The translations under genes were made by a program, and so were the position numbers. DNA of 25,392 bases from a virus. Positions 1 to 25,392 of this stretch are shown here, piece by piece (position 1 is the stretch's first letter; every line of letters begins with the position of its first letter). The notes beneath the pieces were generated by a model. The model was not told the origin of the DNA and did not search any database. It saw only the letters and a list, made by a program, of their open reading frames with translations. The stretch is from positions 1-25,392 of IMG/VR virus record IMGVR_UViG_3300005613_000381. One strand, given 5' to 3'.

Positions 1-1581
1 GATACTCGAAGTGTCAGTCGAAAAGGCGTTATGCGAATAAACGTACCACCCAGCTTGCGAACCGTAAAGCGAGAGACCGCCGAGCAGAACAACACGCATA
101 CCACTATTCGGGTCATCATCAAAATACGTATAATAATAAGCACAAATATAGGTAGAGCTCGAACCACTTGTTTCTGTCGGGTAAAATGTTCCGCTTAAAA
201 TGTCTGACATATATCCGTCTGTTTCGGCAAGGTATCCCTTCATCGTAAAATAGGTTTCTACGCTGTCTTCGCTTGGGGACGTAGTGAGATAAGAGTAATC
301 GGTATAGTCTGTAGATGTCCATAATTCAGAATACATACTATCTGCCGTAGCCCCTACAGAGTCATTGTCTACTGCCACACCATCCACAAATTGCCAAAGC
401 GAGCCGTAAATATTCTCAATCCCCCGATATGACGAGTATTCAGATACAGAATCAGAGCCATTCACATCTGTTGCATCGTCCAGCGCATCTTCTTCTGAAT
501 TGCTGGCATTACTATAGTTGCCGTCTGAATTTGACAGACCGCAGTCTGCGATACTGTTTGCATAAGACCATGCGTCATATGAAGTGTTGCCTGTTCCAAT
601 CGTGCTTTGGATATTAAAGTCAGCATATTCGATTAGATACAGCATTTCAATAATATAGGATGCATAATAATCAAAAAGATGCCAGCCAGTACCTCTATTC
701 TCCGCAATAGTTCTGTATTCAACAATCGTATCATCAGAATCTGGCTTATATCCGGCAACCGAACAGAGAGTGTCCTCTGTTGTGTTCACACTCACATCTC
801 CATCTGAGATTACACCGTTGTCAGAGACCACTGCTTCGTATGCTCCAACGTAAAACTTGTCGCTTTTGTAGAAGCCGCTGATACTGTCTTCCGAACAATA
901 GAGTCTGCGTTTGTTGCCTACCCAGCTGTCATAATAGTAGAATGCTGGTATCTCGACCATAACCTGTCCGTCTGTTCCGTCTAAATTAGCAGCACTTCCG
1001 TCTGCTTTTTGGGTGGAATTATATGGATTGAGATAATATGCAACCGTACCGTCATCCTCAACCACGCACCTCTTCATATTATTGTGGATAGGAAGGTATG
1101 TTGCCGGCGACTGCCCTGTGCTGTCATATGCAGAGAAGTTACCAAGTCGTGTATATGTGTCTGTATCTGAGTCCCATTCTACGCCCCAGTATTGGTTTGT
1201 GCTGATAAACTCCTCGCCGTTTACATAGAGAGTGTCTACGTCAATCCGATTAGTTATAACATTTCCCATAACAGTAAGATTGGAATCGATCACCACATCA
1301 TCTTGAATGGTAACCAATCCACTATCTCTTGCAGTTATAAAATCAACTGGAAATCCAACAGTCGATCCTACGGTGTCTGCCCATTCAATCCAAGTTATGA
1401 AGGAATTGTAAAAAGCAATCTCGCCGTCAATCCTTCCGTAGCTGTTTGTTCCAAGAGTACTGTCTGCGATGAAATCTTGGAAGTAATTATACATTAGTTT
1501 CGATCCGTCAATAAGTCCGTAATCGGCACTTAAATTAAACCCCACTAATAGTAATATTAACAGTAAAATTATTTTTTTCAT
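1..1581 (-). CDS. Putative receptor-binding / DGR-target-like protein with signal peptide (partial, C-terminus off window)
   Basis: I translated this by hand: it is open for 527 codons from ATG at 1581 (Shine-Dalgarno AAGGAGATAAA) to the window edge, with no stop. Residues 1-19 form a Sec-type signal peptide (MKK, a hydrophobic leucine-rich core, then NLSA-DYG). Residues 88-125 look like a fibre shaft (QDDVVIDSNLTVMG, VDTLYVNGEEF). From about 130 onward it resembles the C-type-lectin / formylglycine-generating-enzyme-like domain found at the tips of many phage receptor-binding proteins: FYVGAYEAVV (about 243-252), IENIYGSLWQFVDG (388-401) and GMRVVLLGG (494-502). Residues 496-527 resemble a DGR variable region: RVVLLGG, then GSQAGWYVYSHNAF, with many NNC/NNT codons. 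It is the last visible gene of the tail operon, where a receptor-binding protein is expected. The domain call rests on motif resemblance. DGR status is inference, because no reverse transcriptase is in the window. Confidence 0.75.
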   Translation of the reverse strand, partial: MKKIILLLILLLVGFNLSADYGLIDGSKLMYNYFQDFIADSTLGTNSYGRIDGEIAFYNSFITWIEWADTVGSTVGFPVDFITARDSGLVTIQDDVVIDSNLTVMGNVITNRIDVDTLYVNGEEFISTNQYWGVEWDSDTDTYTRLGNFSAYDSTGQSPATYLPIHNNMKRCVVEDDGTVAYYLNPYNSTQKADGSAANLDGTDGQVMVEIPAFYYYDSWVGNKRRLYCSEDSISGFYKSDKFYVGAYEAVVSDNGVISDGDVSVNTTEDTLCSVAGYKPDSDDTIVEYRTIAENRGTGWHLFDYYASYIIEMLYLIEYADFNIQSTIGTGNTSYDAWSYANSIADCGLSNSDGNYSNASNSEEDALDDATDVNGSDSVSEYSSYRGIENIYGSLWQFVDGVAVDNDSVGATADSMYSELWTSTDYTDYSYLTTSPSEDSVETYFTMKGYLAETDGYMSDILSGTFYPTETSGSSSTYICAYYYTYFDDDPNSGMRVVLLGGLSLYGSQAGWYVYSHNAFSTDTSSI

Positions 1582-1590
1582 TTTATCTCC

Positions 1591-1746
1591 TTATTGATTT
1601 ACCCATTCAAGAAAATCTTCAATGGAATCAAAATTAACTGTATCGTTTTGATATTCTAAAACTACTTTATATTGAGAATCAATAGTAATGCTCTCAAAAC
1701 TTTTATTCCCCGATAAATATTCAACTATTTCTTGTAATTCAGTCAT
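1591..1746 (-). CDS. Small acidic hypothetical protein (51 aa)
   Basis: ATG at 1746 follows the TAA of the upstream gene after one nucleotide, with AGAGGG a few bases upstream as Shine-Dalgarno. The frame runs 51 codons to TAA at 1591, and the ribosome site of gene 1..1581 starts directly after it. The product begins MTELQEIVEYLSGNK and ends IEDFLEWVNQ; it is acidic, with no membrane segment or cysteines. Its tight fit between two tail genes supports it being real. It may be a small fibre chaperone or tail-tip protein, but I do not recognise the family. Confidence 0.75.
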   Translation of the reverse strand: MTELQEIVEYLSGNKSFESITIDSQYKVVLEYQNDTVNFDSIEDFLEWVNQ

Positions 1747-1747
1747 G

Positions 1748-2680
1748 TTATACCCTCTTTAGTTTTATGGTTAGATGAAGACCTGCCGCCTCAGTTCCGT
1801 CAGCAGACAATACAAGTCCAATACGATCCCCGTCTGCAAGTGTTGTGTTTGTCAAAGTACCAACCCTCGTTGTTTTCGCAGTATCTTTTAAGCTAAACCC
1901 ATTATTGGTATTATTCGTTAGAATATCATCTCCACCGCCCTTTGCCTCAACGCCACTCAATCTCTCAACTTGTATATATAAAGTCGCAGCAGTTGTTTCG
2001 GCAGTTTCTGTAAAACACTCAATGCTTACAACTTCATAAGCAGCATCACAGATAAATAATGTCCTGTCCACCGTTGCCTGTTTTATATTGCCAGCATTTG
2101 GTTCGCAGTATGTTATATAAACATACGGTTGAACAATTATACTGTCAACTAATAGCGTGTCAGCAGTACAGTCAAGAGTTCCGCCAGTTACTGTACAATC
2201 TCCGTCAAAATCCCAATCACCAGCCACAGTATCATTGGCACTTTTATCCAACAAATTTTGATTTTGAATACCAGCAATCGTCCCATTGACATCGGTGAAT
2301 GTAATCGTATCAACACCTGTTACTGAATTATCTCCCATTGCAATATTGCCAGACATCGTACCGCCATCATTCGCCAATGCTGGTTCAAGTTGAATATAAA
2401 TAGGTGCATATCCATTAACGGCAGCCCATGTTCCTGTTGCTGTGGTATAACTCTCAATACGATAATATCCAGAATCTTCGCTGTCAATTTCGATGCTCCA
2501 GATTCCGTTTCCACGATCTGTGAAATCTCCACTTCCTGCAAGGTTACCAGTATATTCGCCAGAATCAGTTCCCGCCTCAACCGATTCTCTTAATCGGACA
2601 GCAGCACCTGCTTCGTTTACCCCGCTAAATGCTGTATTGTCTGACTGTTCAATGTAAATTCTTTTCTCTATATCAGCCAT
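1748..2680 (-). CDS. Putative tail fibre / tail-tip protein
   Basis: 310 residues from ATG 2680 (Shine-Dalgarno AAGAGG), overlapping the previous gene by 8 bp (ATGGCTGA). The N-terminal half is a small beta-rich domain (MADIEKRIYIEQSDNTAFSG, then a YTGNLAGSG and GIWSIEIDSEDSGYY stretch). Residues 100-170 hold a shaft-type repeat, including NQNLLDKSANDTVAGDWDF, that matches repeats in the protein encoded at 10181-11215. The C-terminal part (about 185-310) is beta-rich and ends in HLTIKLKRV. NLLDK..TVSG.W repeats are common in phage fibre shafts. There is no signal peptide, unlike gene 1..1581 and the two fibre genes at 9.6-11.2 kb. The fibre role is inferred from the repeat and from position downstream of the tape measure. 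Confidence 0.6.
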   Translation of the reverse strand: MADIEKRIYIEQSDNTAFSGVNEAGAAVRLRESVEAGTDSGEYTGNLAGSGDFTDRGNGIWSIEIDSEDSGYYRIESYTTATGTWAAVNGYAPIYIQLEPALANDGGTMSGNIAMGDNSVTGVDTITFTDVNGTIAGIQNQNLLDKSANDTVAGDWDFDGDCTVTGGTLDCTADTLLVDSIIVQPYVYITYCEPNAGNIKQATVDRTLFICDAAYEVVSIECFTETAETTAATLYIQVERLSGVEAKGGGDDILTNNTNNGFSLKDTAKTTRVGTLTNTTLADGDRIGLVLSADGTEAAGLHLTIKLKRV

Positions 2681-8188: not shown

Positions 8189-8312
8189 CTTTTCCGTCCT
8201 TTATATAGCCCTGTTCTTTCAAAATCTTCACCAAATCTTTTGGTAAATCCTTAACTTTGTAATCACCGAGCTTATAGTGTTTATTTTTCCATATAAATAT
8301 TTTATCAGCCAT
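8172..8312 (-). CDS. Small basic hypothetical protein (46 aa)
   Basis: 46 codons from ATG 8312 with Shine-Dalgarno AGGAG eight bases upstream. The start overlaps the end of the tail-terminator fusion by 8 bp (ATGGCTGA), and the end overlaps the start of the tail tube gene by 17 bp. The product begins MADKIFIWKNKHYKLGDYKV and contains DLPKDLVKILKEQGYI. It is lysine-rich, with no cysteines or membrane segment. Overlap on both sides plus a strong ribosome site make it likely real. Small proteins often occur between tail terminator and tube genes, but I do not recognise this one. Confidence 0.75.
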   Translation of the reverse strand: MADKIFIWKNKHYKLGDYKVKDLPKDLVKILKEQGYIKDGKDENGK

Positions 8313-9657
8313 TTATACGCTCCTGTATCCTTAAAGATATAATCCTCAAAGAATAGTTGTCATTATATCCAGCACGAGTTGGATCAAACGCACCTGAATA
8401 ATAATCGCCCTTATCAACATTAATAATTCTTGCACAATATGCGTAACCACCAAGATCGCCATCGTCAATTATTGTATCGCATATCGCCTTCTGATCTTCG
8501 TTAATACGTTCTAATCTGTCTTGGTTAATGTTATGAAACATATATAAATCAACAAAATGACCAACATCATATCGGTATCCGCCCGCTTCTTCCCACTCCT
8601 CATTTCCGTCTTTTATCAATACGGCAGGATACCTGTTTCCTATTTTCACAACATTATCTTCAGTCAAGTAATCCACATAACCAAATATATCTCTTTCATA
8701 TCGCTGAATATTATCAATAAGGTCTTTCAAGTAATCCAAATACAGCTGTTGATTAGATTCCCAATTATCAACTAAGGTTACTGTCTCATAGTCGAAACTC
8801 TCAACCTGTGAATAATCACCATTGGAGTTTTTGCCTTGAAATACTATATAATATGTTCCCGCTTTTCCGTAAATCGTTTCGGTGTCACTTGTTCCCGTAC
8901 TATCATAAAAACCAACCGGTTCTACATCGCTTGCGGGTTCTTCATCATAAATAGAAATAACAGTCGAAGCATTAGCTGAATCTTTTGGATTTACCCAAGA
9001 CAGAGTAAGAACATTTGAGCTATTCGATACAGATATTCGAGTAGGTGACATAGGTTCAAGAGAAGTAACCGCTTTCGCAGCTGTTTTGTCCATTGTTCCA
9101 TAGCCAGTTTCCTTGACCCATCCAGTTGAGTAGTTCGAGCAAGTCTGTCTTATTGCCTGTCTCGCATCGTGAAAGTTCCAAGTAGGATTGTCAACAAGTA
9201 TCTGTGCTATAACACCAGCTACACGAGCAGTTGCGGCAGACGTACTTGAATCATCGGTCTGTATTTCAAGACCTGCACCATGACTGCCATCTTCATGTGC
9301 CACCGCACAAATTATATCTAATCGTGAAGGTTCGGTAAATTCCGTATTAGTACCATCACCAAACGAATGTACAATTCCAACCCTGTTTATGTAAGTACTG
9401 CTTCCATAAGTAGAAGTTCCATATTCACCATCTCCACCACCTGCCCATGCTGTATCTCCACCGCCTTCGTTTCTTGCATCTGTCAGCCCCGTTAACGAAC
9501 TTGATATTATGTCAAAGCCATTCTCTATTGCATAAATAATTGCTGCTGCTATACCAGAACTTGTATCCTCTATCGTTGCAGTGGGACACTCTGCCTGTAT
9601 TATAGCAGTCATTGTGGCTGCATGTCCAGCACCTGCGTCAGCTACTAAAACCTTCAT
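8305..9657 (-). CDS. Subtilase-like domain - FN3-like - tail terminator-like fusion protein
   Basis: 450 residues; ATG 9657 overlaps the stop of the upstream gene (TAATG). Residues 1-200 match the peptidase S8 layout: VADAGAGHAATMTAII at 5-20 (D7, H12), IYAIENGFDIISSSL at 41-55, STSAATARVAGVIAQIL at 138-154 in place of GTSMATPHVAG (S140), and GYGTMDKTAAKAV at 185-197. The usual ~30 residues between Asp and His are missing, and the oxyanion Asn region reads FGDGTN, so activity is uncertain. Residues 205-290 look like a fibronectin type III domain (TRISVSNSSNVLTLSWVNP). Residues 300-450 resemble a tail terminator or completion protein (NRYPAVLIKDGNEEW, YRYDVGHFVDLYMF, YSLRIISLRIQE), which fits its place before the tail tube gene. 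Confidence 0.75.
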   Translation of the reverse strand: MKVLVADAGAGHAATMTAIIQAECPTATIEDTSSGIAAAIIYAIENGFDIISSSLTGLTDARNEGGGDTAWAGGGDGEYGTSTYGSSTYINRVGIVHSFGDGTNTEFTEPSRLDIICAVAHEDGSHGAGLEIQTDDSSTSAATARVAGVIAQILVDNPTWNFHDARQAIRQTCSNYSTGWVKETGYGTMDKTAAKAVTSLEPMSPTRISVSNSSNVLTLSWVNPKDSANASTVISIYDEEPASDVEPVGFYDSTGTSDTETIYGKAGTYYIVFQGKNSNGDYSQVESFDYETVTLVDNWESNQQLYLDYLKDLIDNIQRYERDIFGYVDYLTEDNVVKIGNRYPAVLIKDGNEEWEEAGGYRYDVGHFVDLYMFHNINQDRLERINEDQKAICDTIIDDGDLGGYAYCARIINVDKGDYYSGAFDPTRAGYNDNYSLRIISLRIQERING

Positions 9658-11224: not shown

Positions 11225-14026
11225 TTAATCATACTTTATGTAATAACCATCTTGCGTTTGTATATACTCTCCATCCTGTGTAACAAGATAGCCAGTAATT
11301 GTATCTTCTTGATTGTGCAATATATACTGATTATTCGTTTTACAGATAAACCCTATATAATTATCAGTCTCGTCTAATGTGCCAAGATCAACAATTTTAT
11401 TTCCCTCTCTGTCGTTACTGATTATTTCAATGCCACTTCTTGAAATTCTACATACACCAACTTCGGCAAGCCAGTAATATGTATCAGCATCTCTTGCAAT
11501 ACTTCGTGGTGCATATAAACCATATCCTTCATTTTCCCAGATAAGATTTTCGGCACCCACATTCCACTCTCCTTCACTACCCTCAAGAATAAATCTATAT
11601 ATTTTATGTCGTGTCCATATAAGTATAGTATTAACATACATACCATTTGACTGTAAGAAAGGTGCTTGCCCCATAGCAAGTATCTCTCCCTCAATATCTC
11701 TATAATATAAGTCAGGGAAATTTATTCCATTAACCTCTCCCCACTTAACCCTATTCTTATATTCCTTATACTCAACTGATCGTACTTCGCCAAAGGTAAT
11801 ATTGTTGTTGTGTGTAGTATAATTATATCCAATCATTGTTTCAAAAGCTGGCATCAAATTGGCGATTTGTTTTACAGTTTTTTCATTATTTGTCGAACTT
11901 GAAATATATTTATTTTCAACATATTGCCATTGGTCAATCTCTCTCCATGTATATGGCGACCTGTGTATTACAAAACTTGTTAGCGTTTCTTCATCAATAT
12001 CCTCAATGGTATATTCTTCGCTTTCTATCGTATTGCCACAAACATCTAAAACAAACAAACTTCTTTTTTCTGTATCTAAATTCCAAGAAAATAATATAAA
12101 ATATATTTTGATTAATGCCGTATCATATTCTATTGACAGAACATTATCATCTTCATCTTTAAAATAACCAGTTGAATCTAATTTTATTGCCAAACTATAT
12201 GTTGCACTATTAATATTTATTGACAACAACAAATCGTTTTGTGGATAGCCAGAACCGCTATATCTTAAAAATCCACATACATATCCAGAATTACTTATAT
12301 TTTTATCTTCATTAAATGCAACGCCAACACCCGTGGCAACAGAACCACTTGCTATTCTAATTGCAGAATTCCCAAAGGTTTGATTTACTGCTGGCAATAT
12401 TGCCCTTTGGGTAGTAATCCATTCTGCATGAGTAAATTGTCCGTCATAAACAGTATTAGCTTTATTTAGAAACTTTGTGTCTATATCGGGATAACCATCC
12501 CAATCTTTTTCATTCATCGGTGCGGTTACAATAGCACCATCAACAACTTTTATTCCATCTCCCCACACTTCTTGGTCAGCCCACGTCTCTGTCCACTGTC
12601 CGTATTCTTCATCCTGATACTTTGTAATATCAACGCCAGCATAGTCCGACTGGTCATCTTCAGGTGTCCAACATAAATATATTGTGTGTGTGGAAGATCC
12701 AGTTAGCTGTGGTATCTTAATATAAACATCGGTATAGTTTGAAGTATTCCAAGTGCCGATATAACAGTTTATTGGAGTTGTAACATCTGTATCATACAAC
12801 CTGATATAATTAGCATTACTAAAACTACCAGAACTTTCAAAATCTTCCCAATTAAGAGAATCTATTGCATCATCTTCGCTACTGCCACTATCGTATAACC
12901 TTACTCTAATAACCGCATCTATAAAGGTTTTTGTGTTTACATTTGTAATATTTATCGGAACATAGTATTTAAACTTAAATGGAAATTGCACCTTTGTTTT
13001 TACACAGCCCAATACTGGCACACCGCTTACAACAGCACCAACCTTAGCAATAGGAGCTATGTCATTTTCATAACTTACCAAAGCACCAGCATCATTCTCA
13101 ACTGATATAATATAACTATTACCAGTATCATCATCTACATTTGTTTTATCAACAATATCATAAGACTGTGCATATCTAAACGTACCAGCACTCGATCCTT
13201 CTGAATAGTTTACAATTCTATAAAATACCGCAAACTCTTTAAGTCTATCCTCGGTAAGTTCATCTGTATCTGGAATTGATAAATTACTTATGGTAACCTT
13301 ATTTACCCACCGTTCTGCTTCACCATCTGTTTCCTTAAAGAACTGCATGTCAAGGGTATCAGAAATAGGAGAGGGATTACTATACTCTCCATTTTCTGTA
13401 ACAACACAGTAACATATCTGAATAAGACCACACTCACACATTCTGTCCTGATCTGCATTTTCTTCCCAATCATCACTATTCCAGTCAGTTAGTTGCGTTA
13501 CTTCTGGTTTTGCTCTTGGTGCTTCGATCCCCATTTTCCCATACTGCAAATCGCCGTCAGTATCGTATGCTACAAAGTGAGTAGTATTACTTCCACCCCA
13601 ATCAGTTATAATTAGTTTATCTGGTGCTTCTATAAACTCCAAGCTCGTAGCAGAACTATACTCAACACCATCTATACTTATTTGATTAGTCGAATAATCC
13701 CCATCTTCATCAAGATATATCACATACAGTTCAAGTCCGCTAACGCCATCTACTAATACAACGTAACATACAGTAGTATCACTATCAATATCAGAAGGAG
13801 AACTTGACGGATACCAAACATAGAAATCGTTTAAATCCCCAAGATCGTCTATGACTGTTTGCAAATCTGAATCATAGGTTTCTACATCTTTCCTAACAGA
13901 AAGAGTTCCCTTGTTCAGAATTTCATAGTTTCTGCAAATCTGAGTTTCTCCGTCTTTAAGTATATCAGCACGAACACCATCATTAAGACCTTCACTCAGG
14001 TCTGAAATCAGTATTCTTTTTTTCAT
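11225..14026 (-). CDS. Large neck/tail beta-propeller-like protein with DUF2341 and LamG-like insertion
   Basis: 933 residues from ATG 14026 (ATGA overlap with the upstream gene). The N-terminal part (MKKRILISDLSEGLNDGVRA, then FIEAPDKLIITDWGG) and the C-terminal part (about 730-900: NRVKWGEVNGINFPDLYYRD, TILIWTRHKIYRFILEG, APRSIARDADTYYWLAEVGV) match the repeating blades of beta-propeller-like phage neck or stabilisation proteins. Between them, about 348-462 reads as a DUF2341 domain (FKFKYYVPINITNVNTKTF, YIRLYDTDVTTPINCYIG, VYIKIPQLTGSSTHTIYLCW). Residues 475-690 look like a concanavalin/LamG-type sandwich. It has no signal peptide. The insertion may carry sugar binding at the head-tail collar. 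The domain names come from motif memory. Confidence 0.7.
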   Translation of the reverse strand: MKKRILISDLSEGLNDGVRADILKDGETQICRNYEILNKGTLSVRKDVETYDSDLQTVIDDLGDLNDFYVWYPSSSPSDIDSDTTVCYVVLVDGVSGLELYVIYLDEDGDYSTNQISIDGVEYSSATSLEFIEAPDKLIITDWGGSNTTHFVAYDTDGDLQYGKMGIEAPRAKPEVTQLTDWNSDDWEENADQDRMCECGLIQICYCVVTENGEYSNPSPISDTLDMQFFKETDGEAERWVNKVTISNLSIPDTDELTEDRLKEFAVFYRIVNYSEGSSAGTFRYAQSYDIVDKTNVDDDTGNSYIISVENDAGALVSYENDIAPIAKVGAVVSGVPVLGCVKTKVQFPFKFKYYVPINITNVNTKTFIDAVIRVRLYDSGSSEDDAIDSLNWEDFESSGSFSNANYIRLYDTDVTTPINCYIGTWNTSNYTDVYIKIPQLTGSSTHTIYLCWTPEDDQSDYAGVDITKYQDEEYGQWTETWADQEVWGDGIKVVDGAIVTAPMNEKDWDGYPDIDTKFLNKANTVYDGQFTHAEWITTQRAILPAVNQTFGNSAIRIASGSVATGVGVAFNEDKNISNSGYVCGFLRYSGSGYPQNDLLLSININSATYSLAIKLDSTGYFKDEDDNVLSIEYDTALIKIYFILFSWNLDTEKRSLFVLDVCGNTIESEEYTIEDIDEETLTSFVIHRSPYTWREIDQWQYVENKYISSSTNNEKTVKQIANLMPAFETMIGYNYTTHNNNITFGEVRSVEYKEYKNRVKWGEVNGINFPDLYYRDIEGEILAMGQAPFLQSNGMYVNTILIWTRHKIYRFILEGSEGEWNVGAENLIWENEGYGLYAPRSIARDADTYYWLAEVGVCRISRSGIEIISNDREGNKIVDLGTLDETDNYIGFICKTNNQYILHNQEDTITGYLVTQDGEYIQTQDGYYIKYD

Positions 14027-25324: not shown

Positions 25325-25392
25325 TGGTAGCGGGAGCAGGACTTGAACCTGCGACCTTCAGGATATGAACCTGACGAGCTACCCTCTGCTCT
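25325..25392 (-). tRNA. tRNA with anticodon CAU (Met or Ile2), 5' end off window
   Basis: Read on the minus strand: D-arm GAGC-AGAGGGTA-GCTC, anticodon arm TCAGG-TTCATAT-CCTGA, variable loop AGGTC, T-arm GCAGG-TTCAAGT-CCTGC, acceptor 3' strand TCCCGCT, discriminator A and encoded CCA. The 5' acceptor strand and base 8 (about 8 nt) are missing. The anticodon stem lacks the three G-C pairs of initiator tRNA, so elongator Met, or Ile with modified C34, is more likely. Confidence 0.93.

Follow-up and report, generated by a model that had tools for sequence, protein, structure and literature searches.

The left end of the virus DNA analysed here, a 25,392-bp linear fragment that we call the window and took at its full length, appears to lie inside the variable repeat of a diversity-generating retroelement (DGR). 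We put at nearly nine in ten the probability that the minus-strand stretch 96..1 is the variable repeat (VR) of a tail-protein gene with an FGE-type C-type-lectin fold, that this gene is the target of a DGR, and that the template repeat (TR) and reverse transcriptase (RT) lie no more than about 1 kb past the left end. That the gene is a DGR target is very probable from its family, its fold, the position of the repeat and the pattern of change taken together. The features of the window on which this reading turns are given below.

1581..1, minus strand: predicted target gene for a tail protein of phrog_5302, 527 aa, truncated on its 3' side where the contig stops
1..1083, minus strand: C-type-lectin-like domain (FGE subtype), residues ~167-527, Z of 19.1 to TaqVP (5VF4)
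96..1, minus strand: predicted VR, its first ~96 nt, placed by alignment to the VR of the closest relative (L001) and 47 family TRs
1596..1745, minus strand: small ORF of ~49 aa directly upstream of the target gene, read from the sequence
1748..2680, minus strand: 310-aa protein upstream of the target gene, without a family match

The reading frame 1581..1 consists of 527 stop-free codons and runs off the window. The C-terminal residues present are ...GMRVVLLGGLSLYGSQAGWYVYSHNAFSTDTSSI, the final ones of the truncated protein being given as RVVLLGGLSLYGSQAGWYVYSHNAFSTDTSSI, and the motif RGIENIYGSLWQFVDG occupies residues 386-401. In L001 (IMGVR_UViG_3300022890_000131), the sole close relative found (77% identity), the protein goes on from the window end with GARLCFKP followed by a stop, which implies that about nine codons are missing from the window gene. 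The VR, which starts at window base 96, therefore lacks about its last 9 codons, and makes up the 3'-terminal 96 nt of the gene as far as the window contains it. PHROGs searches matched residues 107-521 to phrog_5302, a tail protein family (E = 2e-75), and searches of Pfam and NCBIfam with the target protein (P0001) gave no match.

A PDB search with the single window sequence returned nothing meaningful, whereas the family profile recovered the structure 5VF4 as its only sequence match (E = 2e-7). An AlphaFold2 model computed from an alignment of 63 homologues has a mean pLDDT of 77, with values mostly of at least 80 in the C-terminal two thirds and about 90 over most of residues 131-500. This model aligns with TaqVP (5VF4), the variable protein of a Thermus aquaticus DGR, at a Z of 19.1 (248 residues over model positions 167-526, 18% identity), and at a Z of 8.7 with PvdO, which we take to be an FGE-fold protein. 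The model, these two structural matches and the profile match together place the window protein in the FGE-type C-type-lectin fold. As the structural alignment runs to TaqVP residue 372, the window stretch takes the place of the VR. TaqVP is thus comparable to the window protein both in its FGE-subtype fold and in its C-terminal VR (residues 341-374; PMC6328139); it differs in its low identity in the structural alignment given above, and in that the window gene comes from a phage fragment and encodes a tail protein.

To survey relatives of the target we used a profile derived from five homologues and took the best 80 of 337 IMG/VR loci; the 3'-terminal 190 nt of every gene were extracted and near-copies sought in each locus. 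Some of the 80 loci are near-duplicates, and the counts that follow are not all independent. A near-copy of the VR follows the stop codon in 53 of these 80 loci, starting 22-465 nt on (median 51), and the TR is found in 51 of the 68 in which the gene is complete and the sequence extends 150 nt or more beyond it. Summed over the pairs from the 53 loci, 1050 of 1583 template adenines (66%) are changed in the VR, as against 93 of 4398 other template bases (2%); the changed adenines are replaced by G (617), T (238) or C (195). In 45 of the best 80 loci of the 337, tblastn places the start of an RT match 174-688 nt past the target stop, and its orientation is that of the target in every case; RVT_1 is present in 43 of 79 records of relatives. 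The RT motifs found in relatives all read SQ (42 of 42), which is the signature of DGR RTs. The mismatches to the TR fall at A in 30 of 30 cases in Psychrobacillus phage Perkons, 8 of 8 in a Helicobacter canis prophage and 26 of 28 in Synechococcus phage S-EIV1, and an annotated RT lies just downstream in the first two.

The preliminary description of this DNA had drawn attention to a variable stretch rich in NNC/NNT codons at the end of a truncated tail gene. The stretch is real and lies on the minus strand, a detail that the description left unstated, and its codon pattern is borne out: the codons at family template-adenine positions are CTC, CTT, TAC, CAA, TAT, CAT, AAC, ACT, ACT and AGT, and nine of these ten end in C or T, with CAA as the exception. 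For comparison with L001 the adenine positions of 47 family TRs were mapped onto the VR, standing in for the window's own TR, and the two VRs were aligned with a codon gap, the window being one codon shorter. They differ at 12 of 22 template-A sites versus 10 of 74 others (one-sided p = 2e-4), a test with less force than pairing a VR with its own TR, since the templates of the two phages probably differ slightly. Differences in the gene body number 207 at third codon positions versus 113 at positions one and two.

A second VR copy is present in L001 itself at 11356-11458, 22 nt after the target stop, where it forms the last 103 nt of the contig. It differs from the L001 VR at 20 of 23 template-A sites versus 5 of 80 others (p = 8e-14), the differences being distributed 12/12/1 over the three codon positions. 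Judged from these sequences, the two copies are strong evidence of adenine-linked diversification in the closest relative. The second copy sits where relatives keep an adenine-rich TR, and has an adenine at none of the 23 family template-adenine sites (G 11, T 9, C 3). We rejected its identification as an ordinary TR on account of this absence of A, the differing letters being G (11), T (9) and C (4). Were it a VR, the chance of finding no A at the family-average retention of 34% would be about 7e-5, a figure to be read with the caveat that substitution reaches 92% in some relatives' VRs. Neither copy resembles the adenine-mutated template of the other, and hence both seem to derive from a third, unseen copy. 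It is possible that the second copy is a template that its own product has replaced, or that it arose as a chimera where the contig ends. We consider it unlikely that an adenine-free hypermutated copy homed into the TR of L001 and overwrote it; if it did, the L001 element destroyed its own template, and the group includes phages whose DGRs have turned themselves off. A search of the L001 record, which is cut at the VR or TR, found no RT.

The preliminary description had also placed an RT and a near-repeat to the left of the window, and proposed a search for both. When this search was run in the window neither was found, and the contig ends inside the VR, before the place where they are expected: the best non-self match to the VR within the window is 43/96, versus 41-45 in shuffled controls, and RVT_1 has no match in the window's record. 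The window likewise ends before the IMH or GC-rich place at the 3' end of the VR, where L001 carries GGCGCGCGCC. The exact VR/TR start CGTGTTGTTCTGCTCGGCGG occurs in the viral collection only in L001's contig (the window's own record was perhaps left out). No leftward extension of the phage was obtained, a scan with the upstream 462-aa gene giving no relatives, and a scan of the genome contigs collection for relatives likewise gave none. By comparison with relatives, the TR and RT of this phage were presumably lost to truncation of the contig. The contig ends between the VR start and the TR end in 9 of the best 80 of the 337 relatives (L010, L016, L024, L035, L066, L067, L070, L077 and L087), and that of L018 is scrambled at the same place; an end inside the VR is therefore unsurprising. 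Such breaks would be expected wherever a population contains several versions of the VR and the TR duplicates it, and the window contig most likely stopped because the sampled phages differed in their VR, part of which recurs in the TR.

The most serious alternative is that the gene is a former target, belonging to a phage that has lost its TR and RT, so that the VR is now fixed. Among the 68 testable relatives from the best 80 of 337, 17 (about a quarter) have no detected TR near the gene, including L011, the next-closest relative after L001 (44% identity), and the relative MetMV has neither TR nor RT. Going by the testable relatives without a detectable TR, target-only members of the family may exist. 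We nevertheless regard a fixed VR as distinctly improbable in the window phage, as its contig breaks inside the VR, just where relatives' contigs break too, and as the second VR copy in L001 shows diversification at template-A sites. Lectin-like tips can vary through point mutation and recombination alone, and the gene could accordingly encode an ordinary receptor-binding tip under positive selection that was never a DGR target, with its NNY codons and C-terminal position coincidental; the adenine-specific TR-VR pairs with adjacent RTs across the family, and the enrichment of changes at template-A sites, make this very improbable. A chimeric contig end, at which the apparent VR would not be the real end of the gene, might be suspected because the stretch is the last part of a virus contig and because L018 has a scrambled end there, but is extremely improbable, as the frame stays open across the conserved motif RVVLLGG...GS.AG...NAFS...SI and keeps the register of L001 and the family.

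The reading as a DGR target, which the preliminary description had proposed, is thus supported by the adenine-specific TRs and adjacent RTs of relatives, the TaqVP-like fold, the changes relative to L001 at template-A sites and the several contigs of relatives that likewise stop inside the VR or TR. By analogy to characterised DGRs, the RT would reverse-transcribe the TR RNA, making random errors at its adenines, and the mutated cDNA would then replace the VR, altering about 11 residues. We infer both DGR activity in the window phage and a receptor-binding role for its tail protein.

In the DGR of Bordetella phage BPP-1 (PMC3240598), adenine-specific rewriting of the VR takes place in the C-type-lectin tail-tip protein Mtd. 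The principle is common to Mtd and the window, whereas the protein families differ at the sequence level; the Pfam model Mtd_N matches one member of one of our alignments (A3; E = 1e-4). A further counterpart is ORF176 of Psychrobacillus phage Perkons (MT325768.1), a homologous target at 35% identity: its TR and RT follow immediately downstream, and every mismatch to the TR falls at a template A. In the window the corresponding downstream part is cut off. The DGR of crAssphage LMMB (PMC7290462; MT006214.1) has a distantly homologous tail-collar fibre as its target (26% identity over residues 125-406); it differs in belonging to another phage group, and neither RT nor TR was found in the window. 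In a survey of more than 30,000 DGRs the adenine bias was almost universal and C-type-lectin folds were present in annotated VR regions (PMC8144416), and by this measure the window system is an ordinary member of a well-known kind. With so many DGRs already published (PMC8144416) the biological news is small. An uncultivated phage without close relatives in the collections searched would join the phages that hypermutate their tail tip, and family membership suffices to recognise a contig broken at such a tip as a probable DGR target.

Several relatives show peculiarities of their own. In S-EIV1 a clear adenine-specific TR follows the target gene (L007, 5969-6092), yet its entire 79-kb record has no RVT_1 match; its DGR has possibly lost its RT. 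A conserved protein of ~96 aa overlaps the 3' end of the RT gene in L012 (8539-8829) and L014 (4170-4460), and has matches in 18 loci of the target family (these two and 16 further). Searches with it gave no match in Pfam or NCBIfam and one weak PHROG match, and it is a candidate DGR accessory protein. The target gene of L067 (6001-7224) contains seven in-frame TGA codons and has a TR directly downstream; this phage probably reads TGA as an amino acid. In the crAss-like phage cr111_1 (L004; record positions 84148-84279) a weak RT fragment with one TAG directly follows the target gene, and would represent a decayed or recoded RT.

Elsewhere in the window, the right end (25328-25392) falls within a minus-strand tRNA gene (Rfam RF00005) and truncates it; ARAGORN did not report this gene. 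A gene of the structural region at 8305-9657 encodes a partial subtilase domain (Peptidase_S8, E = 5e-8) that covers profile positions 94-288 only.
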